Source of the DNA: Planctomycetota bacterium | GTDB lineage: Bacteria; Planctomycetota; Phycisphaerae; Sedimentisphaerales; Anaerohalosphaeraceae | NCBI GenBank assembly: GCA_019456225.1 | Contig: VRUI01000010.1 | Coordinates: 1-64,000 of the forward strand | Direction: 5' to 3' | DNA length: 64,000 bases | Part shown: positions 25,866-46,423 of the stretch, one piece after another | Position numbering within the stretch: position 1 is the first letter of the stretch | Layout: every line of letters begins with the position of its first letter | Program-made: the position numbers and the translations under genes | Notes under the pieces: generated by a model | Database searches by the model: none | What the model was told of the DNA's origin: nothing | What the model saw: the letters and a program-made list of their open reading frames with translations, nothing else

Positions 25866-26240
25866 ATGGCTACTAAACTTGATATTTATAAATGTACTTT
25901 GTGTGGTAATATTGTTGAAGTTCTTACCGGCGGTGACGGCGAGCTTGTTTGCTGCGGTCAGCCGATGAAGCGTCTGGCAGAGAGCACCGCCGATGCCGCG
26001 ACCGAAAAGCATGTTCCTGTGATCGAGAAGATCGATGGCGGGTATAATGTTAAGGTCGGCAGCGTGCCGCATCCGATGGAAGAAAAGCACTATATCGAAT
26101 GGATCGAGCTGATCGCAGGCGGTAAGGCTTATCGTGAATTTTTGAGCCCGGGCAATCCCGCTGAAGCTGTCTTTATGGTCGATGCAGACGATGTCAGTGC
26201 AAGAGAACACTGCAATGTCCACGGATTATGGAAAGGATAG
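25866..26240 (+). CDS. dfx: Desulfoferrodoxin (2Fe superoxide reductase)
   Basis: This enzyme reduces superoxide to hydrogen peroxide without making O2, using electrons from rubredoxin. The 124-residue protein has both iron sites. Centre I uses C10, C13, C29 and C30 (desulforedoxin-like). Centre II uses H49, H69, H75, C116 and H119, with the catalytic Glu47-Lys48 pair in place. It is therefore the two-centre class found in sulfate reducers. The start at 25866 follows GAAAGGG; an ATG at 25842 lies upstream of that site. The ferritin gene begins 5 bp after the stop, so the two are probably translated from one message. Confidence 0.97.
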
Positions 26241-37027: not shown

Positions 37028-37687
37028 ATGTTGCAAGATGGCGAAAAAGGTGTAATTATTCAGCGTGACAAAGAGACTTATGCGGTTGCGCCGCATTTTC
37101 CATGCGGTGTTGTTACGCCGGATATTCTTCGTAATATTGCCGATGTCGCAGAGAAATACGGTCATACCGCATTGAAGGTTACCAGTGCGGCAAGGATCGC
37201 GATCATCGGTCTTAAGGAAGAGGATATTGACAGCGTCTGGGAGGATCTTCATTGCTCTGCCGGTGCGGCGGTTGGTTTGTGTGTCCGCAGCGTCAAGGCG
37301 TGCCCGGGTACGACTTTCTGCAAGAAAGGTTTGCAGGACAGTCTTAGCGTGGGCATGAAGCTTGACGAAAAATACCACGGTATGGAGGTTCCCGGCAAAC
37401 TTAAGATGGGCGTTAGCGGTTGTCCCAACCAGTGTGCGGAAACTTGCATCAAGGATATCGGTCTTGTTGGGCTAAAGAACGGCTGGAAGGTGTTTGTCGG
37501 CGGTAACGGCGGCGGAAAGCCAAGGCTTGCTGTTGAGATCGCAAAGGATCTTAACAGCGAAGATGCACTCGATATGATCGACAAGATCGTCGACTATTTC
37601 AAGGCAAACGCCACAGGCCGACAGAGGCTCGGTGCGATGCTCGAAAAAACCGGTATCGACGAGTTCAAAGCCGCTGTTCTTGGCTAA
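37028..37687 (+). CDS. Short assimilatory-type sulfite reductase-like protein (siroheme, 4Fe-4S)
   Basis: This is a single half-unit of the nitrite/sulfite reductase fold, 219 residues. Residues 1-80 form the ferredoxin-like half domain (YAVAPHFPCGVVTPDILRNIADVAEKYG). The second part has the siroheme/4Fe-4S ligands C92 and C98 (CPGTTFC) and C132 and C136 (SGCPNQC). This is the size and layout of the 24-27 kDa low-spin assimilatory-type sulfite reductases of Desulfovibrio and methanogens, which reduce sulfite and also nitrite in vitro. The in vivo role is uncertain. A shortened relative lies at 38907. Promoter and ribosome-binding site (TAAAGGG) are in the 101-bp upstream gap. Confidence 0.85.
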   Translation: MLQDGEKGVIIQRDKETYAVAPHFPCGVVTPDILRNIADVAEKYGHTALKVTSAARIAIIGLKEEDIDSVWEDLHCSAGAAVGLCVRSVKACPGTTFCKKGLQDSLSVGMKLDEKYHGMEVPGKLKMGVSGCPNQCAETCIKDIGLVGLKNGWKVFVGGNGGGKPRLAVEIAKDLNSEDALDMIDKIVDYFKANATGRQRLGAMLEKTGIDEFKAAVLG

Positions 37688-37837: not shown

Positions 37838-38326
37838 ATGGATATTCTTGAATTTGCACTGGAGAAGGAGCGTCTTACCCGTGAAAGTTATCAGCAGCTT
37901 GCCGGTAAGGCGAGAAATGCCGGTCTGCGTAACATACTCGAAATGCTCGCTGAAGAAGAGGCAATCCACTGCTATGTGATCGAGAGCATGATTAGCCAGA
38001 AACCCGGTCTTCTGACAGATACCGATGTTCTTGGTGAGGCAAAGGATATTTTTAACGGTATTCGAGAGTCCGTCGAGAAATTCGATTTCAGTGTCAGCGA
38101 GGCTGAGCTCTACCGCGATGCCAGGGACAAGGAGCAAAAGAGCATGGAGTTTTATCAGCAAAAAGCCCGCGAGGTCGAAGATGGAATTCAAAAGGAGATT
38201 TTCCTGAAACTCGCCGAAGAGGAACAGAAGCATTTTATTGTATTCGATAATATTTGCGAGTTTGTCGCCTCGCCCGAGTGCTACCTGGAAAATGCCGAGT
38301 TTGTGCATACGGCAGAAGACTTTTAG
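37838..38326 (+). CDS. Ferritin-like/rubrerythrin-family protein (third in the window)
   Basis: This all-helical protein of 162 residues has two ExxH diiron motifs, EEEAIH near residue 42 and EEEQKH near residue 130, plus first- and third-helix glutamates (EKERLTRESYQQ and DKEQKSMEFYQQK). There is no rubredoxin domain. It belongs to the rubrerythrin-like ferritin superfamily. Peroxide reduction or iron handling is likely, but the substrate is unknown. It starts after GGGGGTG and is followed by the Ni-SOD gene after 48 bp that contain a 7-bp array overlapping its stop codon. Confidence 0.82.
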   Translation: MDILEFALEKERLTRESYQQLAGKARNAGLRNILEMLAEEEAIHCYVIESMISQKPGLLTDTDVLGEAKDIFNGIRESVEKFDFSVSEAELYRDARDKEQKSMEFYQQKAREVEDGIQKEIFLKLAEEEQKHFIVFDNICEFVASPECYLENAEFVHTAEDF

Positions 38327-38357: not shown

Positions 38358-38374
38358 TAATAAAGGGGGTTGCG

Positions 38375-38851
38375 ATGAGATTTATTTGTAATAAAACATT
38401 TTTGCTTCTATCGGCGGTCATATTAGCGGGGGCTTGTTCGGTCGTTTATTCGCATTGCCAGATTCCCTGCGGGATTTATGACGATGCTGCACGGTTTGAA
38501 ATGATCGCCGAACATATTATGACGATCGAAAAATCGATATCTTCGATCAATCAACTTTCTGCCGAGTCCAAACCCGATTACAACCAGATCGTCAGATGGG
38601 TTGAGAACAAGGAAAAGCACGCCGATGCGGCTAGTGGGATTATTACTTACTATTTCATGGCTCAGCGGATAAAGCCTGTCGCCAAAAACAGCCCTGGGGA
38701 ATATGATAAATATGTCAGTCAGTTGACGCTGCTTCATGAAATGCTGGTTCAATGTATGAAAGCCAGGCAATCAGCGGATGAGGCTGTAATAGAGAAATTG
38801 CGCGGATTGCTTGGAGAATTCGAGAAGGAATATTTGACCAATCGCAAGTAA
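38375..38851 (+). CDS. sodN: Exported nickel superoxide dismutase
   Basis: This enzyme converts superoxide to O2 and H2O2 at a nickel site built from the mature N-terminus. The 158-residue precursor has a hydrophobic signal (FLLLSAVILAGA) and then HCQIPCGIYDD, the nickel hook HCxxPCGxY, at residues 27-35. Cleavage after Ser26 (Val-Tyr-Ser) would expose His27 as the first residue, as the chemistry requires; the ligands are then His27, Cys28 and Cys32. Classic NiSOD instead has a short propeptide removed by SodX. A possible lipobox-like LAGAC at 17-21 is a competing reading that would abolish the hook. The four-helix body is about 15 residues longer than the usual 117. Confidence 0.88.
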   Translation: MRFICNKTFLLLSAVILAGACSVVYSHCQIPCGIYDDAARFEMIAEHIMTIEKSISSINQLSAESKPDYNQIVRWVENKEKHADAASGIITYYFMAQRIKPVAKNSPGEYDKYVSQLTLLHEMLVQCMKARQSADEAVIEKLRGLLGEFEKEYLTNRK

Positions 38852-38906
38852 TTGTTGAGATGAGTTTTATGCGTATACTGGATTTCGTTTAATTTTGGGG
38901 CAATTT

Positions 38907-39458
38907 ATGAATTTACGCACGAGCAATAGTTCTGAAGATCAAGCAGCTGTTTTCTGCGGACAATGCGGCAATGCCTCTGAAAAGGCGATTTGGGACGCCA
39001 CGGCCGGCCTTGACAATTTGGACGGTCCTGTCGTTACCCGGGTCAATACATGCGGCGGCAATGTCTTTTGTCCTGAGGGAAAGCAGGACAGCCTGGATTT
39101 AGGATTGAAATTGGAGGAAAGATTGCATAATATATACCTTCCGGCTAAACTTTGTATCGCCGTTTCCGGCTGTGACAATCAATGCGCAGAGGCTTGCGCA
39201 AAAGACATCGGTATTGTCGGGATGGAAGACGGCTGGGATTTATTTGTCGGCAGAAATGGCTGCCGGGATATAAGACATGCATGGCAGCTGGCCAAGGGGC
39301 TTTCGACGGAGCGGGTGCTTGAAGTGGTAGACAGAATAGTCGCATTATTCAGGGCAGATTGTAACGATAAGAAAAAACTCTCAGCATTGATCGAAGGTAT
39401 CGGATTTGAAAGTTTCAAAGCAAAAGTGCTCAGGCAAAAGGAACCTGCAAACAAATAA
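38907..39458 (+). CDS. Truncated sulfite-reductase-like 4Fe-4S/siroheme protein
   Basis: This is a 183-residue relative of the protein at 37028. The cluster-binding part is intact: C49 and C55 in TCGGNVFC, C89 and C93 in SGCDNQC, and the GWDLFVGRNG and VVDRIVALFR segments align with its neighbour. The N-terminal ferredoxin-like half domain is replaced by a short segment with a CxxC pair, C17 and C20 in VFCGQCG. Loss of that half domain should alter substrate access to siroheme, so it may be an electron-transfer or sensing protein. The start at 38907 follows TTGGGGC. Confidence 0.78.
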   Translation: MNLRTSNSSEDQAAVFCGQCGNASEKAIWDATAGLDNLDGPVVTRVNTCGGNVFCPEGKQDSLDLGLKLEERLHNIYLPAKLCIAVSGCDNQCAEACAKDIGIVGMEDGWDLFVGRNGCRDIRHAWQLAKGLSTERVLEVVDRIVALFRADCNDKKKLSALIEGIGFESFKAKVLRQKEPANK

Positions 39459-43106: not shown

Positions 43107-43210
43107 AAAATGCAGGCGGTACATGCTGGAGCAAAATTTTTTATCTCTAAGTTTGAATATTTTAGTCTTATATGTTAATTTAGTTAATATAACTTTTGAA
43201 AGGGAATACC

Positions 43211-44500
43211 ATGTTTTGTTATCAATGTGAACAAGCTGCCGGCGGAACCGGCTGTACTAAAGTTGGGGTTTGCGGTAAGAATGAAGACATTCAGTCGCTT
43301 CAGGATACGCTTTTGTTTGGCCTCAAGGGCATCGGTGCCTATGCATACCATGCAAGAGAGTTTGGCAAGATCGACAGCGAAGTAGACGCGTTTATGCATG
43401 AGGCTATGTTTGCCACGCTTACAAATGTGGATTTTGACCTCGGCCGCCACCTTGAGCTCGTTCTAAAAGCAGGCGAGATGAATTACCGCATCATGAAGCT
43501 TCTAAACGACGCCCACACCGAAGCCTACGGCAATCCAACTCCCGTCGAGGTGCCCACAGGCACAAAGGCCGGGCCCGGAATTCTCGTTACAGGTCACGAT
43601 CTGCTTGACCTTTATGAGTTGCTCAAGCAGACAGAGGGCAAGGGCATCAATATTTATACGCACGGCGAGATGCTGCCGGCACACGGTTACCCGGAGCTTC
43701 GTAAGTTTGACCACCTCGTCGGTAACTACGGAACCGCCTGGCAGAACCAGAGAACCGAGTTCGACGCATTCAGCGGACCCGTGCTGATCACGACAAACTG
43801 CATAATGATCCCGAAGGATTCGTACAAGGACAGGCTTTTTACACGCGGCATCGCAGCCGCTGAAGGCGTAAAACATATCGCCGACAGGGATTTCAGTGCT
43901 GTTATCGAAGCGGCATTGGCATTGGCTCCTCTCGAAGAAAACCCGACAGGCACGCTAAGCACCGGCTTCCATTACACAGCCGTTCTCGGTCTTGCAGACA
44001 AGATCGTCGAAGCTGTCAAAGCCGGCAAGATCAAGCACTTCTTCTTTATCGGCGGATGCGACGGGGCAAAACCAGGCAGAAATTACTTCACCGAACTCGC
44101 CGAGAAAGTGCCCGCTGATTGCGTAATCCTTACTGCTGCCTGCGGCAAGTACCGCATCAACGCCGCAGACTATGGAACAATCGACGGTATTCCGCGTCTT
44201 ATCGACATGGGCCAGTGCAACGATTGCTACTCGGTAATACAGGTCGCTTTGGCACTTGCAGAAGCATTTGAATGCGGAGTGAACGACTTACCGCTTTCGC
44301 TCGTAGTATCCTGGTACGAACAAAAGGCAGTGGCGATCTTGCTTACACTGCTGCACCTTGGGGTAGAAAACATTAGGCTCGGACCTTCGCTGCCGGCGTT
44401 CATAACTCCGAATGTCCTTAACGTACTGGTAGATAAATACAAGATCAAACCAACTGGCGACGTAGACGAAGACCTCGCCGCGATGCTCGCAGGAAATTAA
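43211..44500 (+). CDS. hcp: Hybrid cluster protein (short class III-like form)
   Basis: Hcp reduces NO or hydroxylamine and also acts as an S-nitrosylase in some bacteria. The 429-residue protein has the N-terminal cluster ligands C3, C6, C15 and C21 (MFCYQCEQ and GVCGK). The hybrid-cluster ligands lie in the segments NCIMIPKDSYKDR, GGCDGAKPGRNY, AACGKYRI and GQCND, and the final Glu region WYEQKA. At 429 residues it lacks about 120 residues of the helical domain of the 550-residue enzymes, the condition of class III Hcps from archaea and anaerobes. An extra cysteine makes CNDC at the fourth ligand site. The ATG follows GAAAGGG. Confidence 0.94.
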   Translation: MFCYQCEQAAGGTGCTKVGVCGKNEDIQSLQDTLLFGLKGIGAYAYHAREFGKIDSEVDAFMHEAMFATLTNVDFDLGRHLELVLKAGEMNYRIMKLLNDAHTEAYGNPTPVEVPTGTKAGPGILVTGHDLLDLYELLKQTEGKGINIYTHGEMLPAHGYPELRKFDHLVGNYGTAWQNQRTEFDAFSGPVLITTNCIMIPKDSYKDRLFTRGIAAAEGVKHIADRDFSAVIEAALALAPLEENPTGTLSTGFHYTAVLGLADKIVEAVKAGKIKHFFFIGGCDGAKPGRNYFTELAEKVPADCVILTAACGKYRINAADYGTIDGIPRLIDMGQCNDCYSVIQVALALAEAFECGVNDLPLSLVVSWYEQKAVAILLTLLHLGVENIRLGPSLPAFITPNVLNVLVDKYKIKPTGDVDEDLAAMLAGN

Positions 44501-44556
44501 ACCCTGACAGAAACTGTAGGGGCGGGCTCAAGTGTCCGCCCTCTACACTACAAAAA

Positions 44557-44591
44557 CCCGAAGCGCAAGAGCAGGGATAATCACTGTGCTC
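44557..44591 (+). repeat. Dispersed repeat, family A (copy 2)
   Basis: This repeat begins CCCGAAGCGCAAGAGCAGGG and runs 35 bp, matching 33 of 35 bases of 4915-4949. It lies just upstream of the ferredoxin gene and rules out translation starts located within it. Confidence 0.7.
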
Positions 44592-44612
44592 GATATTTTA
44601 ATGAGGCCTGAT

Positions 44613-45341
44613 ATGGCAATAAGAAATATAGTATTGATAGACGAAGATAAGTGTAACGGATGCGGCGATTGCGTCACTTCATGTGCAGAAGGCGCTATTG
44701 AGATCATCGACGGCAAGGCTAAACTTGTTAGCGAGATATATTGTGACGGACTGGGGGCATGTCTTGGATCGTGCCCCATGGACGCCATCTCCATCGAAAA
44801 ACGCGAATCCGCCGAGTTCGATGAAGCAGCGACCGAAGATCACCTGGAAAAGATGAAACAGAAGGAAACGGCCCAGCCGAAATCACCATGTCAGTGTCCC
44901 GGCACTATGATGCAGAGTTTTAAAAGTGACGCAGGCGATGCATCTTCGGCCGGTGATGTTTCTTCGCAACTTGCCCAGTGGCCGCTTCAGCTTACGCTGC
45001 TTTCGCCGCAGACTCCGTATTTCAAGGGTGCCGATCTGATGCTGACAGCAGACTGCGTGCCGTTTGCTATGGGGGATTTCCACAGTAAACTCCTCAAGGG
45101 CAAGGCAATAGCTATCGCCTGTCCCAAACTTGACAATATCGATCCATACATTGAAAAGGTCGCAGAGATCATAAAAGTTAACGACCTGAAGTCGCTGACG
45201 GTTGTCCATATGATGGTGCCATGCTGCTCGGGAATGACCCATATCGCAAAACAGGCCATCGCATTAAGCGGTGTCGACATGAAATTTGAAGATATTACCA
45301 TTGATTTGCAGGGAAATATTTGTAATACTGAAACGCTTTAA
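44613..45341 (+). CDS. Ferredoxin-domain protein linked to Hcp
   Basis: This is a 242-residue cytosolic protein. An N-terminal 4Fe-4S site uses C14, C17, C20 and C24 (CNGCGDCVTSC). A second, incomplete site reads C44, C50 and C54 with Leu47 in place of a cysteine (CDGLGACLGSCP), so it may hold a 3Fe cluster or none. A CQCPG motif follows, then a C-terminal alpha/beta domain with CVPFAMGDFH and PCCSGMTHI. This form is common beside hcp in anaerobes and is the likely electron donor. The start at 44613 lies downstream of a dispersed repeat and follows GAGGCC; 44601 is an alternative. Confidence 0.85.
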   Translation: MAIRNIVLIDEDKCNGCGDCVTSCAEGAIEIIDGKAKLVSEIYCDGLGACLGSCPMDAISIEKRESAEFDEAATEDHLEKMKQKETAQPKSPCQCPGTMMQSFKSDAGDASSAGDVSSQLAQWPLQLTLLSPQTPYFKGADLMLTADCVPFAMGDFHSKLLKGKAIAIACPKLDNIDPYIEKVAEIIKVNDLKSLTVVHMMVPCCSGMTHIAKQAIALSGVDMKFEDITIDLQGNICNTETL

Positions 45342-45367
45342 ACTGCAAATGAAAGGTTCGGGCATAA

Positions 45368-46423
45368 ATGGATTACCTAATTAAGATTGTAAGTGAGTTT
45401 TGGGTGACGCTTACTGTTATGTCGCCGTATCTTTTGTTTGGTTTTTTCGTTGCCGGCATAATGTCGGTTTTCATTTCTCCCAAACTCATAGAAACTCATC
45501 TTGGCGGCCGCGGCATATGGCCCGTCGTCAAGGCCTCGCTTTTTGGTGTTCCTTTACCTTTGTGTTCCTGCGGCGTTATACCGGTTACGGTTTCGCTGCG
45601 AAAGCACGGGGCCAGCAGGGGGGCGTCAATATCATTTCTACTGTCCACCCCTCAGACCGGCATCGACAGTATGTTCGTTACTTACGGAATGTTGGGCCCG
45701 GTCTTTGCGATCTTTCGCCCGATGATAGCTTTTGTGACGGGAATTGTCGGCGGCGTTGCAGTCGAGACACTGGCGCATACGCCTCGTCAAGCAGACGCTC
45801 AGCCGCAAGAAGAAGATGCTAAAACATCTGAGGATGAGTGTCAGGATCCCTGTTGCAAAAAGGCGCAGGAAGGTAAAATCGTCAGACTGCTAAAATACGG
45901 TTTTCTCACACTGCCGAAAGATATCGGATCGGCCATGCTCGGCGGGCTTATTATCGCCGCACTTATCGGCGTTTTCATACCGGGAGATTATATCCTGGAA
46001 GGCGTAGAAACCCTCGGTACCTTTGGAACTATGCTTGTGATGATGGCACTGGGAATTCCCGTCTATGTTTGTGCGACTGCTTCGGTCCCGCTAGCGGCCG
46101 TCATGATCGCAAAGGGGATATGTCCGGGCGCCGTACTGGTATTTCTGATGACAGGCCCGGCAACCAACGCCGCAGCCTTTGCTACCATCTGGAAGGTCAT
46201 GGGATCCAGGACCGCAATAATTTACATTTTTACGGTCATAGGCTGTGCACTGGGTTCCGGCCTCCTCCTTGAATTATTATTTTCAACGTTTGCCGTTCAA
46301 TCCGAACACATCCACAAAATGGACCCGTCCCTTGTGGGCCACATCTCAGCGGTTCTGCTGTTGGTGCTTCTCATTAATGGCATATACGCAAAAAGCATAA
46401 AAAAACAGGAATCAGATAATTAA
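45368..46423 (+). CDS. Membrane permease, SO_0444/ArsP-like family
   Basis: This is a polytopic membrane protein of 351 residues with about eight hydrophobic helices. The family hallmark is the GVPLPLCSCGVIPV stretch, with paired cysteines in a membrane loop, followed by STPQTGIDS. Related proteins export copper/zinc or methylated arsenic. The middle loop is acidic with a CQDPCCKKA cysteine group that could bind metal. It begins 26 bp after the ferredoxin stop and so probably belongs to the hcp operon. Its substrate cannot be named from sequence. Confidence 0.82.
   Translation: MDYLIKIVSEFWVTLTVMSPYLLFGFFVAGIMSVFISPKLIETHLGGRGIWPVVKASLFGVPLPLCSCGVIPVTVSLRKHGASRGASISFLLSTPQTGIDSMFVTYGMLGPVFAIFRPMIAFVTGIVGGVAVETLAHTPRQADAQPQEEDAKTSEDECQDPCCKKAQEGKIVRLLKYGFLTLPKDIGSAMLGGLIIAALIGVFIPGDYILEGVETLGTFGTMLVMMALGIPVYVCATASVPLAAVMIAKGICPGAVLVFLMTGPATNAAAFATIWKVMGSRTAIIYIFTVIGCALGSGLLLELLFSTFAVQSEHIHKMDPSLVGHISAVLLLVLLINGIYAKSIKKQESDN

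Follow-up and report, generated by a model that had tools for sequence, protein, structure and literature searches.

Nickel superoxide dismutase (Ni-SOD) uses the amine of His1 as a nickel ligand and therefore requires a free N-terminal histidine. The window analysed here, a stretch of 64,000 nucleotides from contig VRUI01000010.1 of a planctomycete assembly (GCA_019456225.1, order Sedimentisphaerales), encodes a member of this family in which the histidine lies behind a hydrophobic leader, raising the question of how the enzyme would acquire its N-terminus. Judging from sequence and structure prediction, we consider it likely that Sec export and a signal peptidase I cut at the nickel hook yield an active extracytoplasmic Ni-SOD beside a cytosolic superoxide reductase, replacing the maturation protease SodX; within this explanation, actual cleavage, nickel binding, activity and location are the parts that we infer. 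The features of the locus are collected in Table 1.

Table 1. Features of the Ni-SOD locus and of related genes in the window.
Feature	Position	Strand	Evidence
Superoxide reductase, desulfoferrodoxin type, 124 aa, without signal peptide	25866..26240	+	PF06397, PF01880, sequence
Rubrerythrin/ferritin-like protein, upstream, 48-base gap	37838..38326	+	PF02915 43.8 bits
Shine-Dalgarno-like AAAGGGGG	38362..38369	+	sequence; 6-13 bases before ATG
sodN-like gene, signal-type Ni-SOD precursor, 158 aa + stop	38375..38851	+	ORF, PF09055, TIGR02753
Sec-type signal peptide, residues 1-26, predicted cleavage VYS/H	38375..38452	+	hydropathy, -1/-3 rule, held-out matrix
Lipobox-like LAGAC, residues 17-21, competing less likely site	38423..38437	+	sequence; second-best matrix site
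Nickel hook HCQIPCGIY, start of predicted mature enzyme	38453..38479	+	invariant hook residues in alignment
Mature Ni-SOD domain, 132 aa, four-helix bundle	38453..38848	+	AlphaFold2, Foldseek
Sulfite/nitrite-reductase 4Fe-4S domain protein, downstream; ATG 38907 or TTG 38895	38895..39458	+	PF01077 84.5 bits

The reading frame, which starts with ATG, encodes a protein that matches the Pfam family Sod_Ni (PF09055) with 98.5 bits in a profile search (cut-off 25), and the SodN equivalog model TIGR02753 with 39.5 bits, under its 90-bit cut-off. Its sequence relatives in the PDB are Streptomyces Ni-SODs only, at about 20% identity, and the alignment begins at His27. AlphaFold2 models the mature domain as a four-helix bundle (pLDDT 91.1, pTM 0.83), with low confidence for hook residues 1–5, as expected without metal. 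The best 16 Foldseek matches in the PDB are all Ni-SODs (probability 1.00, E-values of at least 0.002), with a TM-score of about 0.6–0.7 by query length. By family and predicted fold the product is a Ni-SOD, as a sequence-only reading of the window had proposed. A search for a phage origin of the locus gave no match, and this origin was rejected.

Surveys of 392 genomes of the phylum and 397 of the class brought the collection to 119 Ni-SODs with a hydrophobic leader (117 unique), here called signal-type, and 14 classical ones; the sampling is mostly of Planctomycetota, with Ilyobacter and 17 loci added, some of these loci from other phyla, and the completeness of the metagenome-assembled genomes (MAGs) varies. 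Peak leader hydropathy ranges from 1.9 to 3.8 in the signal type and does not exceed 1.39 in the classical type, without overlap. TIGR02753 also separates the two, giving 143–198 bits for four classical planctomycete proteins and 34–53 bits for seven of the signal type, the window protein included. A tree of the mature domain splits the types on a single branch (SH-aLRT 96, one change); it is built on 129 columns only, has long branches and does not give the direction of change. As far as these sequences tell, signal-type Ni-SODs form a whole clade and are not a one-off.

The hook of the window fits the pattern H-C-x-x-P-C-G-x-Y. His1, Cys2, Pro5, Cys6 and Gly7 are invariant in both types (130 aligned relatives), and position 9 is occupied by Tyr or Phe. 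At residue 3 the classical proteins have Asp, and those of the signal type Gln or Glu. The place of Streptomyces Arg39 is always Arg in both types, and that of Tyr62 is Tyr in all signal-type proteins and Tyr or Phe in classical ones. At the place of Streptomyces Arg47, which we take to be a second-sphere residue, 115 of 116 signal-type proteins carry His and 13 of 14 classical planctomycete proteins carry Gln; residue 56 of the mature window protein is this near-invariant His. Activity is not guaranteed, because of the changes from Arg47 to His56 and from Asp3 to Gln or Glu. A His-rich C-terminal tail (at least four His in the last 25 residues) occurs in 28 of 114 signal-type proteins, among them L008, L009, L011, L013, L016 and L045, and in none of the 14 classical ones; such tails possibly serve nickel capture. 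The survey also contained a signal-type Ni-SOD that continues in frame for about 320 more residues (L074, a possible fusion), a second Ni-SOD copy split by a stop (L136, on contig C25 of genome G747), and, in a genome of the window's order, a Ni-SOD (L158) identical to that of a Sedimentisphaerales MAG (L004).

In the window protein the leader, MRFICNKTFLLLSAVILAGACSVVYS, runs directly into HCQIPCGIYDD, so that the hook starts at His27. The leader has the traits of a Sec substrate of signal peptidase I, namely a charged start, a hydrophobic core (maximum 11-residue hydropathy 2.65) that reaches within 1–2 residues of the hook, and small residues at −3 and −1. The predicted cleavage rests on this hydropathy, on the −1/−3 rule with a shift control, and on a matrix trained on 79 relatives from outside the window's order. 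The matrix ranks the bond between Ser26 and His27 first (8.5) and that between Ala20 and Cys21 second (6.6); it also puts the hook first in 21 of 27 proteins of the order withheld from its training. The −1/−3 rule is satisfied at the hook in 92% of the 117 unique signal-type Ni-SODs, whereas no other register between −8 and +6 exceeds 32%; since the sequences are related, these figures are not independent trials, and they cover several phyla. In each of the 17 relatives from public genomes, Ala or Ser closes a hydrophobic leader immediately before the His-Cys pair; these relatives come from several Planctomycetota, Zixibacteria, Lentisphaerae, Omnitrophota, Bacteroidales, Ozemobacteraceae, Elusimicrobia and an unclassified bacterium. 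The earlier placement of the hook behind a Sec-type signal, with a cut between Ser26 and His27, thus agrees with the top-ranked site and with its conservation across several phyla. The window leader has no twin-arginine motif (one RR match was found among the 117 leaders), so export should be by Sec, and Tat export was rejected. Two tandem Peptidase_S26 genes in the window's genome encode signal peptidase I; this pair is large (reading frames 560 and 527 residues long, contig C77 of G000, 43177–45866).

Signal-type leaders are not uniform. In nine of the 117 the residue at −1 is not Ala, Gly or Ser, and two groups carry long pro-regions, of some 15–25 residues; one-step maturation is therefore not universal, and as a rule for all signal-type members it was rejected. 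In one of the two groups, the f37 family (L060, L063, L068, L070, L071), and in L064, Arg, Trp, Leu or Phe precedes the hook and about 10–19 residues separate it from the hydrophobic core; from their sequences, these proteins seem to need a second protease. In the other, the f7 family (L069, L153, L161, L165, L166), leaders of 48–52 residues comprise a signal and a pro-region of about 20–25 residues.

The classical route of maturation was followed through sodX, detected with the TIGR02754 profile at its curated cut-off. A sodX-like gene lies on the same strand within about 450 bases downstream in 13 of the 14 classical cases, nine of them over the cut-off, and 87 bases separate the fourteenth classical gene from the end of its contig. 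Over the same cut-off, sodX was found in none of 115 genomes with signal-type Ni-SOD only (41 from the phylum survey and 74 further ones). A sodX elsewhere in the genome, for which the sequence-only reading had suggested looking, was rejected: the profile has no match anywhere in the window's genome (assembly 95.8% complete). Matches below the cut-off do occur in signal-type genomes; since E. coli and B. subtilis give such matches to this profile as well, they have the appearance of ordinary signal peptidases. Both types occur together in three genomes (G169, G191, G100), the classical Ni-SOD accompanied by a sodX-like gene and the signal-type one not; the pairs are L058 with L023, L050 with L024 and L049 with L027.

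In the mechanism that we propose, Sec would export the Ni-SOD precursor and signal peptidase I would cut it between Ser26 and His27, this one cut both releasing the protein and freeing the His1 amino terminus for nickel. Export would do the job that falls to the SodX protease in cytoplasmic Ni-SODs, because the releasing cut also creates the free amino terminus. Nickel would be loaded outside the cytoplasm, because Sec substrates cross unfolded, and the exported enzyme would remove superoxide outside while leaderless superoxide reductases act inside. Outside the cytoplasm the thiols of the hook might become oxidised, which would count against an exported Ni-SOD.

The closest counterpoint to a single cut at the hook is the bond between Ala20 and Cys21, near in score and within a motif that fits a loose lipobox. 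The LAGAC motif noticed by the sequence-only reading is indeed present; with [LVI][ASTVI][GAS]C at the end of the hydrophobic core as the lipobox pattern used, the loose pattern is matched and the strict one is not. Were Cys21 lipidated, the cut by lipoprotein signal peptidase would leave CSVVYSHCQIPC, with the hook internal and incapable of its usual nickel binding unless a second cut followed. Such a lipoprotein is unlikely. Besides the rank of the site and the fit of LAGAC to a PROSITE-type lipobox core, the presence of LspA in the window's genome makes the route possible, and two other leaders, one of the same family (L144, LIAC) and one from Omnitrophota (L010, LLGC), share a Cys 6–7 residues before the hook. 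However, Ala and Gly at −3 and −2 are atypical for a lipobox, and the alternative is weakened because Cys21 is not conserved: in L002, the nearest relative (67% identity in the mature part), the aligned residue is Ala, and such a Cys occurs in only three of 117 leaders, the window's and these two, all of which also keep a good cleavage site at the hook. We regard as about equally unlikely a protein that is exported with a Ni-SOD fold and uses its hook for another metal or another job, such as metal capture or a different redox reaction. The low identity to Streptomyces Ni-SOD, the replacements at residue 3 and Arg47 and the His-rich tails of many relatives would suit it, and other secreted proteins with an N-terminal His bind metals without being dismutases (PMC12537917). 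Against it, the primary hook residues and the equivalents of Tyr9 (Tyr or Phe), Arg39 and Tyr62 are all kept, and the neighbourhood is one of oxygen and superoxide defence.

The long pro-regions described above are the reason to consider export in two steps, with a signal peptidase cutting upstream and another protease trimming to the hook: signal-type members of this kind seem to require a second trimming, the f37 and f7 leaders keep about 10–25 residues between core and hook, and the f37 family mostly has no signal-peptidase site at the hook. For the window protein this is very unlikely, as its hydrophobic stretch ends beside the hook, leaving no room for a long pro-region, and the best site is that at His27. 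That same closeness of hydrophobic stretch and hook could instead mean that the leader is never cut, leaving the protein in the cytoplasm or anchored in the membrane and the gene non-functional as a dismutase; the retention of the −1/−3 rule at the hook in relatives of several phyla and the two Peptidase_S26 genes make this scarcely credible.

The neighbourhood bears on the role of the putatively exported enzyme. The rubrerythrin-like gene is probably co-transcribed with the Ni-SOD gene, and a homologue lies directly upstream of Ni-SOD in several loci of the same order. Scans for promoters and terminators turned up no decisive signal. These two genes are flanked by a NirB-like pair (37028–37687 and 38895–39458), stand-alone proteins similar to the C-terminal portion of NirB, its sulfite/nitrite reductase part, the second consisting of the 4Fe-4S domain only. 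Further away, positions 43196–44500 encode a hybrid cluster protein of 434 aa, whose best match starts at about residue 120–190 of models 522–546 residues long, preceded by genes for an Rrf2 regulator and a cupin. The cytosolic superoxide reductase that the earlier reading had credited to the organism is there in two leaderless copies, one in the window and one on contig C11. Neither an Fe/Mn-SOD nor a Cu/Zn-SOD was found in the window's genome (assembly 95.8% complete). Superoxide reductase is encoded in 19 of 21 genomes of the same order bearing a signal-type Ni-SOD. In three relatives (L003, L004, L018) Ni-SOD is clustered, in varying combinations, with rubrerythrin, thiol-peroxidase-type, flavodiiron-type, superoxide reductase and ferritin genes, peroxiredoxin also being described in relatives' clusters, and on an Elusimicrobia contig (L015) a superoxide reductase gene lies directly upstream of Ni-SOD. 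The occurrence of both enzymes in one cluster fits, as an association, a split between compartments. On balance we lean towards a wider reading, in which the signal type is a separate and widespread subfamily where signal peptidase I would replace SodX, nickel would be loaded outside, and anaerobes would pair the enzyme with a cytosolic superoxide reductase.

If the proposed route is correct, an anaerobe may hold an extracytoplasmic dismutase beside a cytosolic superoxide reductase, and nickel would be delivered to the enzyme outside the cytoplasm. Should signal peptidase mature the signal type, a missing sodX would say nothing about the use of Ni-SOD there. The NCBI SodN equivalog model (TIGR02753) misses the signal type.

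The window protein resembles Streptomyces SodN (TIGR02753; 1Q0D, 1T6U) in its four-helix fold, in the ligands His1, Cys2 and Cys6 together with Pro5 and Gly7, and in the need for a free N-terminal His. Unlike classical SodN, it has a Sec signal in place of a short polar leader, no accompanying sodX, and a far lower TIGR02753 score than the four classical planctomycete Ni-SODs. Its hook has Gln3 and Ile4, whereas classical hooks have Asp3, followed by Leu4 in Streptomyces and Gly4 in planctomycetes, and it has His56 at the place of Streptomyces Arg47. A signal-type leader is also found in Ilyobacter polytropus DSM 2926 (WP_013389192.1, from a complete plasmid record), where YLFA precedes HCEVPCGIYDD; this protein of the Fusobacteriota shares 45% identity with the window protein and has different neighbours. 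In algal Ni-SOD fusions, it is the removal of a ubiquitin domain that frees the hook. These fusions (PMC6332867) also place a leader that is not of the SodX type before the Ni-SOD domain, in their case a ubiquitin domain and not a signal peptide. In cyanobacteria, Ni-SOD has been described as cytoplasmic, and strains without sodX have been suspected of having no working Ni-SOD (PMC8346466).

Our search, which covered the open literature, yielded no paper that treats the signal type as a clade or deals with its independence from SodX or its operon context. Signal-peptide Ni-SODs are nevertheless already on record, because the accessible text of PMC12537917 (Nat Commun 2025 16:9244) describes one as a query: the leader and His of the Roseiconus lacunae Ni-SOD (WP_230780104.1) retrieved many Ni-SODs and were used to find other metalloproteins. 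Ni-SOD classes, SodX and superoxide reductase are not surveyed in that text. As described there, the Roseiconus lacunae protein is a planctomycete Sod_Ni whose signal peptide ends right before the His, and it is very probably of the same type as the window Ni-SOD. The principle of the sequence-only reading, an N-terminus made by a signal peptide, stands at the level of a predicted site at the hook, while the clade, this prior art and the clade members without a site at the hook had escaped it. The same text gives LPMOs and CopC as proteins in which removal of the signal peptide exposes a metal-binding N-terminal His amine. As predicted for the window Ni-SOD, these histidine-brace proteins are secreted and owe their N-terminal His to signal-peptide removal, but they have unrelated folds, bind copper instead of nickel and carry out other chemistry.
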